From Candidatus Phytoplasma meliae (GTDB lineage Bacteria; Bacillota_I; Bacilli_A; Acholeplasmatales; Acholeplasmataceae): a DNA stretch of 64,000 nucleotides. The notes under the pieces were generated by a model that was not told the DNA's origin, did not search any database, and worked only from the letters and a program-made list of their open reading frames with translations. The position numbers were made by a program, and so were the translations under genes. The stretch covers positions 73,694-137,693 of the forward strand of contig NZ_JACAOD020000001.1 in assembly GCF_016876135.2 (NCBI RefSeq), given 5' to 3'. This document shows positions 24,427 through 58,589 of the stretch, one piece after another (position 1 is the stretch's first letter; each line of letters begins with the position of its first letter).

Positions 24427-26061
24427 TTAATAATTTTTTTTATTAACAATTAAAGTTTTATTTTGAAAACGAACATTAGTTTTGTTTTTCATTTGATACC
24501 AAAAACGACTGGCAACTTCAAAAATAGTTTCATGAGTTAAATGCTTAATGTTACCAATATTTTTTCCATAAATTTGAAATTGATCTTTTAAAAGTCTAAT
24601 TAAGGTTGTTGGGTTGATGTTATCTTTTTTACCTAAATTAATTATTACTTCTATAAAATCACTTCTCTTAGAAGAACCATAGCGGGGTTCATGGAAACGA
24701 GGTTCATTAAAACTTTTCGAAGTAAAAGAGTTATTAAAACCTATTCTTGGCGCCAAAATATCCGGATAGTGTCTTTTTTTTGGTAAAATATCTTTTAATA
24801 ATCCTTGAATAATTTGTTCTGCTGAAAATTGTTTTAACAAGCCTTCTATTAAAGGATAATTTGTTTTTTCTTCATTATTTTGAGTAATCATCTCTAATAT
24901 TTGTTTTTCAAAATTTTTTAAAAGTTCTTTTTGAATGTTATCTACAGAAGGAATTTCTAAAAAATTAATTTTTTCTTTTAAATAATATTCTAATTTTTTA
25001 AGTTGACCCATTTTACGAGGACTGATTAAACTATAAGCTAATCCTTTTTTACCAGCTCGTCCAGTTCTTCCAATTCTGTGTACATAAACTTCCTCTGCAT
25101 GTGGTAAATCATAATTAATTACTATTTTAATATCAGAAATGTCCAAACCACGAGCAGCTACATCAGTAGCAATTAAAATCTTAATTTTTCCTTTACGAAA
25201 GTTATTCATGACATATTGTCTTTGATTTTGTTTTAAATCACCATGAACAGCATCTGCTAAAAAACCTTTATCTTGTAAATAAGAAGCAATTTCATCAACA
25301 TCTTTTTTAGTGTTAGCGAATAAAATAACAGAATGGTCTTTTTTTAAATCTAATAAACGTAACAATAACTTATTTTTGTCAACTTCTTTCACTAAAAAAT
25401 AAAATTGTTCAATTGCATTAACAGCAACTTTAGTTACAGGAACTTTTAAAATCTTAGTATCTTTTTGATATTTACTAGCTATTTTTTTAATAAAAGGAGG
25501 TAGAGTGGCTGAAAATAAAACTGTTTGTCTTTTTTCAGGAATTTGCTTTAAAATAGTTTCTAAAGCATCTTGGAAACCCATTTTTAACATTTCATCGGCT
25601 TCATCTAGGGTTAAAATTTTTAAACCTGATAAGTCAATTTTTCCTTTTTCTAAGTGATCAATAATGCGACCAGGAGTTGCAATAATTAAATGAGGTTTAC
25701 TTTCTAAAGCTCTAAATTGTTTAGTATAAGATTCGCCTCCAAAAATAACAGCAATTCTAATCTCATGATAAAAACGTAATAATTTTTTTAATTCTTCATA
25801 TACTTGAAGGGTTAATTCTCTGGTAGGACATAAAATTAAACTTTGAGTTTTAGCTAATTTAGGATCAATTTTTTCAATAATGGGAATCCCAAAAGCAAAA
25901 GTTTTTCCAGTACCTGTTTGTGCTTGTCCAATCACATCATGACCTTCTATAATTTCTGGAATAACTAAAGCTTGAATAGGGGTAGCATCAATAAAATTTA
26001 ATTCCTTTAAAGCTTTTTTAGTTTGTTCTAAGATAGGCAATTGTTCAAATAAAGTATTCAT
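24427..26061 (-). CDS. DEAD-box ATP-dependent RNA helicase (CshA/DeaD type)
   Basis: A 544-residue RNA helicase. The N-terminal RecA domain has the Q motif (ATPIQALVIP), motif I AQTGTGKT (47-54), DEAD in LDEADEML and SATLPP. The second domain has HRIGRTGRAGK. The C-terminal part contains a DbpA-like RNA-binding domain (about 465-535). It probably acts in mRNA decay or ribosome assembly under stress, as CshA/DeaD proteins do; RNase Y, a CshA partner in Bacillus, is encoded at 56711-58285. An extended low-homology segment (about 375-460) separates the helicase core from the C-terminal domain. Confidence 0.94.
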   Translation of the reverse strand: MNTLFEQLPILEQTKKALKELNFIDATPIQALVIPEIIEGHDVIGQAQTGTGKTFAFGIPIIEKIDPKLAKTQSLILCPTRELTLQVYEELKKLLRFYHEIRIAVIFGGESYTKQFRALESKPHLIIATPGRIIDHLEKGKIDLSGLKILTLDEADEMLKMGFQDALETILKQIPEKRQTVLFSATLPPFIKKIASKYQKDTKILKVPVTKVAVNAIEQFYFLVKEVDKNKLLLRLLDLKKDHSVILFANTKKDVDEIASYLQDKGFLADAVHGDLKQNQRQYVMNNFRKGKIKILIATDVAARGLDISDIKIVINYDLPHAEEVYVHRIGRTGRAGKKGLAYSLISPRKMGQLKKLEYYLKEKINFLEIPSVDNIQKELLKNFEKQILEMITQNNEEKTNYPLIEGLLKQFSAEQIIQGLLKDILPKKRHYPDILAPRIGFNNSFTSKSFNEPRFHEPRYGSSKRSDFIEVIINLGKKDNINPTTLIRLLKDQFQIYGKNIGNIKHLTHETIFEVASRFWYQMKNKTNVRFQNKTLIVNKKNY

Positions 26062-26742
26062 AATTTCTTCATCTCTTTCTTTTTTTTAATATTGAAAATA
26101 AAATATACAAGTAGAAATATAAAATGTTTTTGCACAAGGATTGCCAAATATTCTTAAAAATTGTTTTTAAGAAATGTGTTTCTGGATAAATTAGATTAAA
26201 GAAACTTTAGTCTTATTAATTTTTGATAATAAATAATTAAACTAAATTTAATAACCTGAAAATAAGAAAGACTAAAGACGTATTTGAAAAACTATTTGCT
26301 TAGTAATTAGTTTTTAAAATATTTTGACATTTAAAACTAAAACATTTCTATAATAAAACAAATTGAAGCAATTGAAGGAAAAGCGAAATAAGTAATAAAC
26401 GTATAAAATTAAAAGATTAATTATTTTATCGTAATTATAAAACAAAGAAAAATAAAACAATTGATGAACATATTCATTACTTCAAAATGCAAATTTTATA
26501 AAACCTTTTTTGAAAAACAAATTAGACTATTTGATAATAGTTTTTGTAATTTAAACATTTTATAAATTTTTACTGTATCTCTAATATTATACTTTTAAAT
26601 TGATTAAAAAACAACTCTTTTCAATATTTTTTTGTTTTTTTATAAATATTTGTTAAAATATCAATTCTTTTTGTGATTTTTGATTTGTTTGTTATTTGAT
26701 TAATTTTTTTAGATAAATGAGGTAAAAAGAAGCATAAAATAA
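26062..26742. other. Long AT-rich intergenic region with possible decayed coding remnants
   Basis: About 680 nt without an intact gene. Reading the plus strand around 26380-26510 gives short open stretches interrupted by stops (one reads RNYKTKKNKTIDEHIHYFKM), which look like a degraded coding sequence, but no family was recognised. No tRNA, riboswitch or IS end was seen. Confidence 0.4.
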
Positions 26743-26772
26743 AAAAGACTCAATGTTGCTTGAGTCTTTTGA
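26743..26772 (-). terminator. Terminator of repeat-protein gene
   Basis: Arms AAAAGACTCAA (26743-26753) and TTGAGTCTTTT (26760-26770) with a 6-nt loop. Read on the minus strand the hairpin is followed by a T-run; it lies 36 nt after the stop of the repeat-protein gene. Confidence 0.85.
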
Positions 26773-26805
26773 TCATATTTGTTTATATATCGAAAATAAA
26801 CTTTA

Positions 26806-29025
26806 TTATTTAAGATATTGTTGTAAATTTCCTTTATTTTTCAAATCAATAATTTTATCAACTGACAAACTTGTATTATTGCTTAATTTTTCAATTTCGC
26901 TTGGTACATATGAATATTTTCTTATAATTTGAATTCCTGCTTTTTTCAATTTGATAATCTCATCAATTGTAAATCTTAAATTATAGCCATGTATTTTTTC
27001 GATTTCGCTTGGTTCATATGAATATTCTCTTATAATTTGAATTCCTTCTTTTTTCAATTTGATAATCTCATCAATTGTAAATCTTAAATTATAGCCATGT
27101 ATTTTTTCGATTTCGCTTGGTTCATATGAATATTCTCTTATAATTTGAATTCCTGCTCTTTTCAATTTAACAATTTCATCAATTGTAAATCTTAAATTAT
27201 AGCCATGTATTTTTTCGATTTCGTTCTCATCCAAATTATAAGCATCTTGAATTTCTTTTTCTGTAAACTGGGCATCTTCTAATTGTTGATCTGTATATCC
27301 ATTATCTTTTAATTCTTTGGCTTTATATCCTGCATCTTTTAATTCTTTAAGTGTATATTTAGCATCTTTTAAATCTTGTAATGTATATTCAGCATCTTTT
27401 AATTCTTGAGCTTTATATCCTCCCTCTTTTAACCATTTGGCTATTCCTGTATATCCATATTCATATTTCTTTTTAATATCTGTAGATGTAAATCCATTAT
27501 TTTTTAATTCGTGAGCTTTATATCCTGCATCTTTTAACGCTATAACAATTTTTTCATGATATTGTTTAATATTTTGAAGTGTATACCCATTATTTAGTAA
27601 CTCTGAAATATTATATCCAGCGTTTATTATATCTTGTGGTAAAAAACGCATTTGTTTTAATTCTTGAATTGTTTTCCCATATAATCTGAAGTACTCAGGT
27701 TTCAATCCAGCGTTGTTCAATTCTTGAATTGTATATTCAGCATCTTTTAACCATTTAATAAATTGGTTTTTGTCGTATTCTACATATAAAACATTATGTT
27801 CATCTATGATGTTTTTTGCCGTATATCCAGCCTCTTTTAATTGTTTAGGCGTATATCCAATATCTTTTAACTCTTTAGCTGTATATCCAGCCTCTTTTAA
27901 TTCTTGAGCTTGGTATCCAGCCTTTTTTAACTCTTGAGCTGTAAGTCGACCTTCTCTTAATTCTTGAATTGTATAACCAGCATTTTTTAATTCTTGAATT
28001 GTATATCCAGCATCTTTTAACTCTTTAGCTTTAAATTCAGCATCTTTTAATTCTTTAAGTGTGTATCCAATATCTTTTAACTCTTTAGCTTTATATTCAG
28101 CCTCTTTTAATTGTTTAGGTGTATATCCAGCATTTTTTAATTCTTGAGCCTTATATCCAGCATCTTTTAACTCTTTAGCTTTAAATTCAGCATTTTTTAA
28201 TTCTTTAAGTGTGTATCCACCTTCTTTCAACCATTGAATATATTTGATTTTTTCCCCCCCGTATAAATGGTATCGATATGAATCTACAATATCTTTTGCT
28301 GTATATCCAGCATTTTTGAATTCTTGTGCTGTATATCCAGCATCTTTTAAATCTTGAGCTTCAAATTCAGCATTTTTTAATTCTTTAAGTGTGTATCCAC
28401 CTTCTTTCAACCATTGAATACGTTTGATTTGTTCTTCCCCGTATAAATGGTATCGATATGAATCTACAATATCTTTTGCTGTATATCCAGCATTTTTTAA
28501 TTCTTGTGCTGTATATCCAGCATCTTTTAAATCTTTAGGTGTATATTCAACATCTTTTAATTCTTGTAAAGTATATCCAGCTTGTTTTAAATCTTTAGCT
28601 TTAAATTCAGCATCTTTTAACTCTTTTGCTGTATATCCAGTATTTTTTAATTCTTTAAGTGTATATCCAGCATGTTTTAAATCTTGAGCCTTATATCCAG
28701 CTTGTTTTAAGTTTTCCAGTGTATATCCAGCATCTTTTAATTCTCGAGCTGAACAACCAGCGGTTTTTAAATCTTTAGCTGTAAATTTATTTTTACATTC
28801 TTCTATTTTGTTTTCACTAATTAATCTTTGAAATTCTAAATAATTTTCCATTTTTGTCATTTCCGTCTTTTGCAACTTTTTAAGAGATTGGTAAGAAGGT
28901 TGATTATAAACATAAAAACCCAAGCCAACTACGCCCAAAACAATAACAACTATAATTGAAATAATAATTTTTTTAGCATTTGATTTAGGTGGTTGATAAG
29001 GGTAAAAATTAGGTTGATTTTGCAT
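26806..29025 (-). CDS. Membrane-anchored decapeptide-repeat surface protein
   Basis: A 739-residue protein with a short Pro-rich N-terminus, one transmembrane helix at about 20-40 (IIISIIVVIVLGVVGLGFYVY) and no lipobox, so probably an uncleaved anchor. From about residue 83 to 600 it is built of 10-residue repeats of the type LKDAGYTAKE, occasionally broken by a variant carrying DIVDSYRYHLYG or WLKEGGYT. Near the end three copies of a 36-residue unit (EIEKIHGYNLRFTIDEI...) and a decayed fourth form a second array (about 602-723). A 180-bp tandem duplication is also present. Such arrays usually form extended helical solenoids that bind partners; with the anchor this suggests a protein facing the host (inference). 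AAGGAG lies 9 nt before the ATG. I do not recognise a named family. Confidence 0.85.
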   Translation of the reverse strand: MQNQPNFYPYQPPKSNAKKIIISIIVVIVLGVVGLGFYVYNQPSYQSLKKLQKTEMTKMENYLEFQRLISENKIEECKNKFTAKDLKTAGCSARELKDAGYTLENLKQAGYKAQDLKHAGYTLKELKNTGYTAKELKDAEFKAKDLKQAGYTLQELKDVEYTPKDLKDAGYTAQELKNAGYTAKDIVDSYRYHLYGEEQIKRIQWLKEGGYTLKELKNAEFEAQDLKDAGYTAQEFKNAGYTAKDIVDSYRYHLYGGEKIKYIQWLKEGGYTLKELKNAEFKAKELKDAGYKAQELKNAGYTPKQLKEAEYKAKELKDIGYTLKELKDAEFKAKELKDAGYTIQELKNAGYTIQELREGRLTAQELKKAGYQAQELKEAGYTAKELKDIGYTPKQLKEAGYTAKNIIDEHNVLYVEYDKNQFIKWLKDAEYTIQELNNAGLKPEYFRLYGKTIQELKQMRFLPQDIINAGYNISELLNNGYTLQNIKQYHEKIVIALKDAGYKAHELKNNGFTSTDIKKKYEYGYTGIAKWLKEGGYKAQELKDAEYTLQDLKDAKYTLKELKDAGYKAKELKDNGYTDQQLEDAQFTEKEIQDAYNLDENEIEKIHGYNLRFTIDEIVKLKRAGIQIIREYSYEPSEIEKIHGYNLRFTIDEIIKLKKEGIQIIREYSYEPSEIEKIHGYNLRFTIDEIIKLKKAGIQIIRKYSYVPSEIEKLSNNTSLSVDKIIDLKNKGNLQQYLK
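26860..27222 (-). repeat. 108-bp (36-residue) tandem repeats at 3' end of repeat-protein gene
   Basis: Three near-identical 108-bp units (about 27114-27222, 27006-27113 and 26898-27005 in order of translation) followed by a diverged fourth. Copies two and three are nearly identical in DNA, suggesting recent expansion or gene conversion. Boundaries are approximate. Confidence 0.85.
28152..28511 (-). repeat. 180-bp tandem duplication inside repeat-protein gene
   Basis: The block encoding DIVDSYRYHLYG...WLKEGGYTLKELKNAEF occurs twice at an offset of exactly 180 bp (for example GTATAAATGGTATCGATATG at 28261 and 28441), giving two near-identical 60-residue units. The copy near 28248-28260 has become a G7A6 run on the coding strand. 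Outer limits are approximate. Confidence 0.85.
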
Positions 29026-29099
29026 TTTTTAGTGCTCCTTTTTATCTTTTATTTTAATTGATTGTACTTTCTTCATTTTAATTTTATTGTACAAATTCT

Positions 29100-29127
29100 A
29101 TTGTACTCTTTTTTTTTTTTTTTGCAA
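29100..29127 (-). promoter_or_regulatory. Putative promoter with 15-nt poly(A) spacer for repeat-protein gene
   Basis: Read on the minus strand: TTGCAA (29127-29122, 4 of 6 to TTGACA), a 16-nt spacer made almost only of an A15 run (29123-29109), then TACAAT (29105-29100). The start codon lies 75 nt downstream. The layout matches phase-variable surface-lipoprotein promoters of Mycoplasma hyorhinis (vlp genes), where the length of a poly(A) run just upstream of the -10 sets expression. A second TACAAT at 29091-29086 is an alternative. Confidence 0.55.
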
Positions 29128-29389
29128 GAAAAATGCTTGTTTTTAAGATAAAAAAGGAGATATGTTATTAAAAAGCATCTCATAAAAAATAATCACACTC
29201 CATCTCAAATACTCAAATCAAAAAAACTAATGATTATGGTACAATATTATTGATTCTTTATTTATGAATAATATCAAAAAAAGTTCAAGATACTATTAAA
29301 TTTTATAATTTCATCTTTTTAAAAGATTTATTTATTCAAACAATGAATGATATTTTAACACTTATCAAATTTACAAAGGATTAAAAAAT

Positions 29390-30094
29390 ATGGACAGCTT
29401 ACAAATAATCACTTTATTTATCTTATTTTATCTTTTAGGATCTATTCCTTCAGGATTAATTATTGGTAAAATAGTACAAAAAAAGGACTTACGTTATACT
29501 GGTTCAGGCAATATTGGAGCCACTAATGCTTCTAGAATATTAGGTAAAAAATGGGGTATTTTAGTTTTTATATTTGACTTTCTGAAAGGATTTTTTCCAG
29601 CCATCATTTGTCTTAAATCAGATTGTTTTAAAAATTATCATGGCCCCAGCCCCTTTAATAATAAAGATATTACTATTTCTCTTTTAATGATTGCCCCTAT
29701 TATAGGACATATGTTTTCTCTTTTTAATCGTTTTAAGGGAGGCAAAGCAATTGCTACTTCAGTAGGTGTTATTACTGCTATTAATCCTTTAATAGGATTT
29801 TATGGAATTGCGTTATTTCTTCTTTTTTTAAAACTTTCTGGTTACGCTTCCTTATCGGCTTTAATTGCTACTATTTTAGTTAACTTATTACTTTGGCTTA
29901 GCCTTTATTTACAAATTACATCAATAACTAGTTATAATCACACAACAAACTGTATTAATGAAGTAACATTATATATTGCTATAGGAATTGTTACTTTAAT
30001 TATCATCTTAAAACATCATTCTAATATCATCCGTCTTTGGCAAGGAAAAGAAAATAAATTTTACAACAAGAATAAACCAAATAAATTAAAATAA
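29390..30094 (+). CDS. plsY: Acyl-phosphate:glycerol-3-phosphate acyltransferase PlsY
   Basis: A 234-residue integral membrane enzyme that transfers an acyl group from acyl-phosphate to glycerol-3-phosphate, the first step of phospholipid synthesis. Motif 1 [11 protein letters not shown], motif 2 [20 protein letters not shown] and motif 3 [17 protein letters not shown] are all recognisable, with five or more hydrophobic helices. It is slightly longer than usual because of an extra loop near residues 175-195. The 364-nt spacer before it has a TGGTACAAT at 29237-29245 as a possible -10, but no good -35. Confidence 0.95.
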
Positions 30095-35951: not shown

Positions 35952-36356
35952 ATGAATAATCAAAAGAAAAAAGAATCGAGATTATTACGCATTGAAATAA
36001 TTAAATTATTATATCAATATGATTTTTATGAAAATAATTTACCTTTTTTGTCTCAAGAATCTGAAATAGTCAGTAATGTATTTCATAAAATTATTGCTAA
36101 ATTAAAATTGATTGATAACATCATTATTAAAAATTTATATAATTACAAAATAAATCGTTTAAACAAAGTTGATAAGGCCATCATTCGTTTAGCTACTTTT
36201 GAATTATTAGAAAAAGATGTTCCTTATGCAATCGTTATTGATGAAGCTGTTGAATTAACCAAGAAATTTTGTAATTTAAACGACGAAAAACAGCATAAAT
36301 TTAATAATAAATTATTAGATAAAATTAATAAAGAGTTACAAATTACATCCAATTAA
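35952..36356 (+). CDS. nusB: Transcription antitermination factor NusB
   Basis: A 134-residue all-helical RNA-binding protein that works with NusE/S10 in rRNA antitermination. The C-terminal half is characteristic: VDKAIIRLATFELLEKDVPY followed by VIDEAVELTKKF. The N-terminal half begins RLLRIEIIKLLYQYDF. It starts at ATG 5 nt after the sodA stop, an unusual partner, and its own ribosome-binding site is weak, so translation is probably coupled to sodA. Confidence 0.9.
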   Translation: MNNQKKKESRLLRIEIIKLLYQYDFYENNLPFLSQESEIVSNVFHKIIAKLKLIDNIIIKNLYNYKINRLNKVDKAIIRLATFELLEKDVPYAIVIDEAVELTKKFCNLNDEKQHKFNNKLLDKINKELQITSN

Positions 36357-58285: not shown

Positions 58286-58589
58286 GTTATATTAATAACT
58301 TCCTTCTTTTTTTATAAATTGATTATAAATCAAAAAATCACAAACACAAAAATGTATATAAAATAGTTGTTTTATATAATTTAGGAAAAACGAGGGATAA
58401 TGCAAAATATTTTTAATAATTAATGTAACGGATTTTAAAAGCTTTTTTTATTTTTTCAATCCCTCAAACGATGAAAAAACAAAAAAAGATATTGATCTTA
58501 ATTGCATTCAATATAAAATAATTTTCTTTTTATTTGTTTATTTATTAAAATAAATATTTAATATTATTTATTTTAAAATAAAAAAATTG
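58286..58589. other. AT-rich spacer upstream of rny
   Basis: About 300 nt. It includes the palindrome TAAAATAAAT (58546-58555) / ATTTATTTTA (58566-58575). The minus-strand rny promoter must lie here, but no clear -35/-10 pair was found. Confidence 0.45.

Follow-up and report, generated by a model that had tools for sequence, protein, structure and literature searches.

The window, i.e. the whole 64,000-nt stretch of Candidatus Phytoplasma meliae DNA that was analysed, carries on its minus strand a repeat protein gene preceded by a homopolymeric tract of 15 adenines (Table 1). Between positions 29127 and 29100 the minus strand reads TTGC-A15-GAG-TACAAT, and 74 nt separate the -10-like box from the ATG at 29025. 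A preliminary description of this DNA had placed a T15 run between a -35-like TTGCAA with a 4/6 match and a -10-like TACAAT, upstream of a membrane-anchored repeat gene, and this arrangement was confirmed. Position 29086, at which the feature of that description started, is the edge of a second TACAAT box. As in slippage-controlled promoters, the homopolymer lies inside the putative core promoter of a gene whose product is presumably displayed at the surface.

Table 1. Features of the repeat protein locus and of its putative promoter
Feature	Position	Strand	Remarks
739-aa protein with a single transmembrane (TM) segment and PF25296 decapeptide repeats, likely surface-displayed	26806..29025	-	localisation predicted
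Hairpin with a T-rich tail behind it, probably terminating the repeat gene	26743..26770	-	
In-frame tandem DNA repeats	26887..28787	-	108 bp x3.1 (96% matches), 180 bp x2.6 (91%), 30-bp units
2.5-kb segment with gene and promoter	26687..29205		45 nt instead, between helicase gene and plsY, in G001
A15 tract (T15 on the plus strand), most of the -35/-10 spacer	29109..29123	-	read from the sequence
-35-like TTGCAA, 4/6 consensus	29122..29127	-	last two A are tract bases
GAG linker from tract to -10	29106..29108	-	also at G001 C1:125493 and G003 C1:716111
-10-like TACAAT, 5/6	29100..29105	-	spacer to TTGCAA 16 nt
Second TACAAT, without TTG at usable distance	29086..29091	-	read directly
Third TACAAT, without TTG at usable distance	29061-29066	-	read directly
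Shine-Dalgarno-like AAGGAG	29035..29040	-	read directly

The hydrophobic TM window of the predicted protein starts at residue 20, i.e. in its N-terminal part, and is followed by the PF25296 repeats (E 6e-156). The TM anchor suggests that the protein is located at the surface, and the in-frame 108- and 180-bp repeats could allow variation of its size. The decapeptide repeats resemble Legionella DotG/IcmE, and matching stretches were present in 17 of 29 phytoplasma genomes. Identity with a DotG/IcmE protein of type IVB secretion was rejected, as the score of 428.6 bits lies below the curated whole-protein cut-off of 750; the stretch that matched best, residues 267-408, falls inside the repeats. 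The translated N-terminus is a TM anchor without a cysteine, so that the lipobox cysteine of the Vlp family of lipoproteins is lacking, and no protein named vlp was seen among the best 120 of 805 homologues listed.

The closest N-terminal relative within the genus was found in genome G023 (40% over residues 3-51, E 9e-6). It sits behind TTGC-A15-CG-TATAAT, and a proline- and tyrosine-rich head is common to both proteins. The frame of this relative (L025, minus strand 1780-1300) has no standard start codon; it therefore failed the ORF filter applied to the upstream regions of the relatives, which eight of the 20 loci entered passed, and was read separately. The assumption that all N-terminal relatives bear a tract was rejected, a run of at least 12 having been detected upstream in only one of the eight judged loci (G028).

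T15 is the sole A/T run longer than 10 in the window, the next longest being two runs of 10. With Markov models of the first, third and fifth order, trained on the window and simulated 60 times each, the expected number of runs of at least 15 per 64 kb was 0.55, 0.55 and 0.22; for runs of at least 12 they predicted 5.4, 4.95 and 2.6, and one was observed in the window. Run length by itself was consequently dropped as proof, the simulations having made a 15-mer unremarkable. Because such a run alone is not improbable in DNA of this kind, the case for the site rests on its position and its recurrence; as judged by sequence comparison, the site rises above chance because its layout returns in other phytoplasmas. 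The expectation of 0.2-0.55 runs of at least 15 per window is also what would be seen if tracts, without mismatch repair, drifted to about 15 nt wherever they are tolerated, some of them lying without function in promoters of poorly constrained surface genes, an explanation that we consider conceivable but unlikely.

Other readings of the run were likewise examined. T15 as a terminator on the plus strand was rejected, the scan showing no hairpin ahead of it, and no RNA element was indicated within 26600-29400, where no Rfam match at E <= 0.1 was obtained. A simple promoter scan of 26650-29450 yielded 12 matches against a shuffle mean of 18.2 and was given no weight either way, since the count lies below that mean. 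A relaxed scan picked up an interrupted A-rich TTG-spacer-TAAAAT site with a spacer of 16 nt at window position 58459 (minus strand).

In the recurring layout TTG is followed by some 15 A or T, then by a short linker and TANAAT; this layout was searched for in 29 genomes of the genus to which the closest relative of the window, G001, belongs. The T form, TTG-T11-N0-9-TANAAT, gave 55 matches in 12 of the 29 genomes, compared with 10 matches in three genomes for the backward control, and was absent from 17 of the 29. Outside the genus it occurred in one of 131 genomes of the order, whose base composition was unmatched. The A form, TTGC-A10-N0-10-TANAAT, was found 12 times in four of the 29 genomes (G005, G010, G023 and G024), its control not at all. 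When the sequences of G029 (750,803 bases) and G005 (800,000 of 879,959 bases) were searched, the layout outnumbered its mirrored pattern by 15 to 4 and by 7 to 0, respectively. This excess of the ordered layout over the mirrored one, in both genomes as well as among the 29 (55 vs 10), argues against a mere neutral drift of tract length. In genome G003 (C1:716111) an A13-GAG-TAAAAT with the linker of the window, lacking TTG, was seen before a short TM protein. At locus L040 of genome G004, a small ORF whose product begins with a hydrophobic stretch is preceded by A26 and then TATACAAT.

A total of 68 tract promoters was tabulated, matches with identical context having been merged and those less than 250 nt from the end of a locus, without an ORF, having been skipped. 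In coding sense 52 of the tracts were T and 16 were A, and 66 promoters had linkers of 1-5 nt. The spacers measured 15 nt in 28 promoters, 16 nt in 16, 14 nt in 10 and 17 nt in seven, with seven others. That 61 of the 68 have spacers of 14-17 nt also speaks against functionless drift, within a range that is bounded by the search pattern itself. Ordinary intergenic promoters, defined as TTG(ACA, one mismatch)-N-TATAAT, showed spacer peaks at 16 (12 cases) and 17 (eight cases) in G029 and at 17 (17 cases), followed by 21 (nine cases), in G005, with at most four in the control of either genome. The spacer of 16 nt in the window hence agrees with the peak at 16-17 of ordinary promoters in these two genomes and with the 15-16 nt of the tract promoters.

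The tight distribution of tract length, with 59 of the 68 tracts measuring 14-16 nt, and the recurrence of the layout between species would also be expected of a static design, in which the stiff A/T tract is a fixed spacer or structural element, e.g. one sensitive to supercoiling, and does not act as a switch. Against it stand the use of both A and T tracts and two interrupted tracts of like length in the sister genome. Because A and T both serve and the sister tracts are interrupted, tract purity seems to be unneeded for the promoter frame. A fixed element of this kind is improbable in our judgement, the more so as copies with identical flanks have tracts of unequal length (see below).

The genes behind the tract promoters were not a random sample. 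Genes with an upstream gap of at least 60 nt were considered, and those with a first TM segment by residue 45 and at most two such segments were classed as N-terminal TM genes, which made up 135 of 425 genes in G029 and 113 of 481 in G005. The layout preceded 11 of the 135 N-terminal TM genes but one of 290 others in G029 (Fisher p 2e-5), and six of the 113 but none of 368 others in G005 (Fisher p 1.5e-4), p-values that are optimistic because paralogues are not independent. Taken together, the layout stood ahead of 17 N-terminal TM genes and one other in these genomes. Some matches had no assigned gene (15 matches for 12 genes in G029, seven matches for six genes in G005). Functionless tracts would not be expected to favour N-terminal TM genes in this way. 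Runs of at least 12 outside the layout showed a weaker TM bias in G029 (7/124 vs 4/289, p 0.02), which is in favour of neutral drift, and none in G005 (1/107 vs 1/368, p 0.4).

Among all fetched loci, the window included, a TM segment started by residue 45 in 41 of 59 downstream ORFs, the TM rule being slightly looser here than in the comparison of G029 and G005. This pool, which has no matched control, was drawn from loci selected by pattern, from the window and from two genomes taken almost complete; nine of the 68 promoters were excluded from it, having no downstream ORF of at least 35 aa within 300 nt. The class lies mostly ahead of genes with one N-terminal membrane anchor; how these promoters are laid out, that they recur and which genes they favour are direct observations. 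In genome G010 two different membrane proteins (L242 and L254) are preceded by promoter and leader sequences that agree to 97% over 240 nt, so that this promoter appears to behave as if it were a cassette.

By its plsY gene the closest genome is that of strawberry phyllody phytoplasma (L001/G001), with 90% identity, the next one reaching 68%. G001 is colinear with the window, 26000-26686 and 29206-29700 matching at 94%. As it lacks the repeat gene, there is no orthologous tract for comparison, and the locus is known from one sequence only. A likeness of the promoter was found elsewhere in this genome: at C1:125493, TTGC-A6-C-A8-GAG-TACAAT precedes a short TM ORF, with 15 nt from TTGC to the linker as in the window. 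In a second one, TTGC-A7-C-A6-TAG-TATAAT, this distance is 14 nt, and no clear gene was seen after it. Neither the T-form nor the TTGC-A-form pattern matched in G001. Since the G001 copies hold interrupted tracts of like length, the promoter frame is conserved, in contrast to the purity of the tract. Functionless drift would not predict that one of the sister promoters has the length seen in the window. With TTGC, 15 nt, GAG and TACAAT recurring in the sister genome, and with tract-spacer promoters recurring in the genus before TM-anchored proteins, the promoter reading of the preliminary description gained support.

Tract purity differed between the sister genomes at other positions too. Four orthologous sites are occupied in G001 by pure runs of 11, 14, 15 and 15, to which A-stretches that are shorter or interrupted correspond in the window; these sites were selected for long runs in G001, so that some shortening in the window is expected. 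One T10 was identical in both. To judge from these alignments, long pure tracts still seem to come and go between sister genomes, a difference in purity that neutral drift would readily produce. The A15 at L001:14548-14562 of the sister corresponds to an interrupted A-stretch at window positions 35961-35973.

Nearly all of the 25 A runs of at least 11 in G001 lie outside TTG-tract-TANAAT promoters. The notion that every long A-tract is a promoter spacer was accordingly rejected, and the predominance of non-spacer tracts in this genome is a further point on the side of neutral drift. One A11 of G001 directly precedes TATAAT without TTG, and one further tract case is also without TTG. Tracts of A14-15 were seen in the leaders of genes on C1, C12 and C23 of G001 which, from their translated N-termini, we take to be rplC-, alaS-, glyS- and uvrB-like.

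Variation in tract length could be observed at other phytoplasma loci. Promoter copies with identical flanks (50 nt before and 60 nt after the tract) differed in the tract only, as T16/T15 in G010 and as T15/T14 in G019, and in G005 a pair of similar promoters before related proteins had T7 and T15. None of the 29 phytoplasma genomes, some of which are drafts, yielded the mismatch repair domain MutS_I (PF01624), which 11 of 14 control genomes did contain. The sequence comparisons lend good support to the promoter layout and to the instability of tracts at other loci.

The lengths of A/T runs were bimodal in G029, G005 and G001, with a decay to 11, next to none at 12-13 and a mode at 15. The counts, from length 11 up to length 16, were 8, 0, 1, 3, 36 and 9 in G029, 2, 1, 0, 7, 16 and 0 in G005, and 5, 0, 0, 7, 13 and 0 in G001; 11 of the 23 runs of 14-15 in G005 come from the copies of a single repeated gene. 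In this gene (L201-L240) an in-frame A tract measures 14 in three copies and 15 in eight, and the copies vary in frame length, some being long-framed. The bimodal lengths would be accounted for by an equilibrium of slippage near 15, with a sequencing bias as the rival explanation. The genome-wide presence of long tracts with a sharp mode at 14-16 and few at 12-13 also fits neutral drift.

Errors of sequencing or assembly at the homopolymer, the real tract being shorter, longer or mixed, are very improbable as an explanation. Trouble with homopolymers in gap closing is mentioned in passages of reports on phytoplasma genomes (PMC3633829, PMC6761752), but the mode at 14-16 is common to three separate assemblies, and a mixed tract would itself favour a switch.

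On balance, the site is probably a slippage-prone promoter spacer that modulates a surface gene in a vlp-like manner and belongs to a class that is present in some members of the genus. Its weaker points are the 4/6 match of the -35, the 17 genomes without the T form, the many long runs outside such promoters and the lack of pattern matches in G001, and the seven of eight judged relatives that have no run of 12 or more. The promoter would be of the sigma-70 type, with a -35/-10 spacer made up almost wholly of a slippery A15. During replication, slipped-strand mispairing, for the repair of which no MutS was found, might add or remove bases, and one or two of them would shift the spacer around the optimum of 16-17 nt and turn transcription up or down. 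Expression of the surface repeat protein might then change heritably, reversibly and at random. The preliminary description had proposed such a slippage switch, and it is supported in part: tract instability at other phytoplasma loci agrees with it. On/off switching here, the effect on transcription, its reversible nature and changes of tract length at the window's own locus are inferred.

More tentatively, and with somewhat more doubt than trust, a wider system may be envisaged. Phytoplasmas, having lost MutS, might run a genome-dispersed contingency system that acts on promoters only, in which tracts settle at 14-16 nt, i.e. near the sigma-70 spacer, so that TTG-tract-TATAAT would hover at the boundary between on and off without a recombinase. 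A cassette placed before unrelated membrane-anchored proteins, such as the pair in G010, might thereby give combinatorial surface variation for life in plant and insect.

Homopolymers in promoters are known from other bacteria. In porA of Neisseria meningitidis a poly-G spacer between -35 and -10 sets transcription by its length. The phytoplasma tract resembles it as a homopolymer in the core promoter spacer, but consists of A or T instead of G and occurs in a set of promoters across the genus instead of at one gene. Wei, Davis, Suo and Zhao reportedly gave, in 2015 (IJSEM 65:2748), a general survey of simple sequence repeats in phytoplasma genomes with their possible functional roles. For the vlp genes of Mycoplasma hyorhinis it is described that insertions and deletions in the promoter poly(A) switch surface genes on and off, while coding repeats vary the size of the products (PMC10502178). 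Both cases concern a wall-less bacterium in which surface-gene promoters contain an A homopolymer. Unlike the Vlp lipoproteins, the phytoplasma proteins have N-terminal membrane anchors, their genes are scattered and T tracts are used as well; moreover, the tract fills the gap between TTG and -10. The likeness to vlp is apt, by analogy, as one of mechanism, and membership in the vlp family is not claimed.

The vlhA surface gene family of Mycoplasma gallisepticum is described as controlled by the number of GAA repeats upstream of the gene (PMC6258824). It differs from the phytoplasma tract in that the trinucleotide repeat lies upstream of the core promoter and a set repeat number is needed for expression. 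In maize bushy stunt phytoplasma, variation in an exported lipoprotein was called phase-variable by Orlovskis et al. (PMC5379588); as presented there it is a coding frameshift polymorphism among isolates and thus differs from a promoter tract, and a separate 2-bp insertion lies 83 bp upstream of a membrane-protein gene (PMC5379588). No description of homopolymer-spacer promoters in phytoplasmas was found in the open-access literature searched, subscription papers being mostly outside its scope.

Homopolymer-spacer promoters are familiar from single genes or clusters, and the present findings would extend them to a genome-scattered set in part of a genus. Little is understood of the surface changes that phytoplasmas, with their tiny genomes and few regulators, undergo between the phloem of plants and their insect vectors. 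Should the tracts act as switches of surface genes, a principal level of regulation in these organisms would be random variation; this variation would be measurable from sequencing reads and would bear on diagnostics based on surface proteins and on vector specificity.
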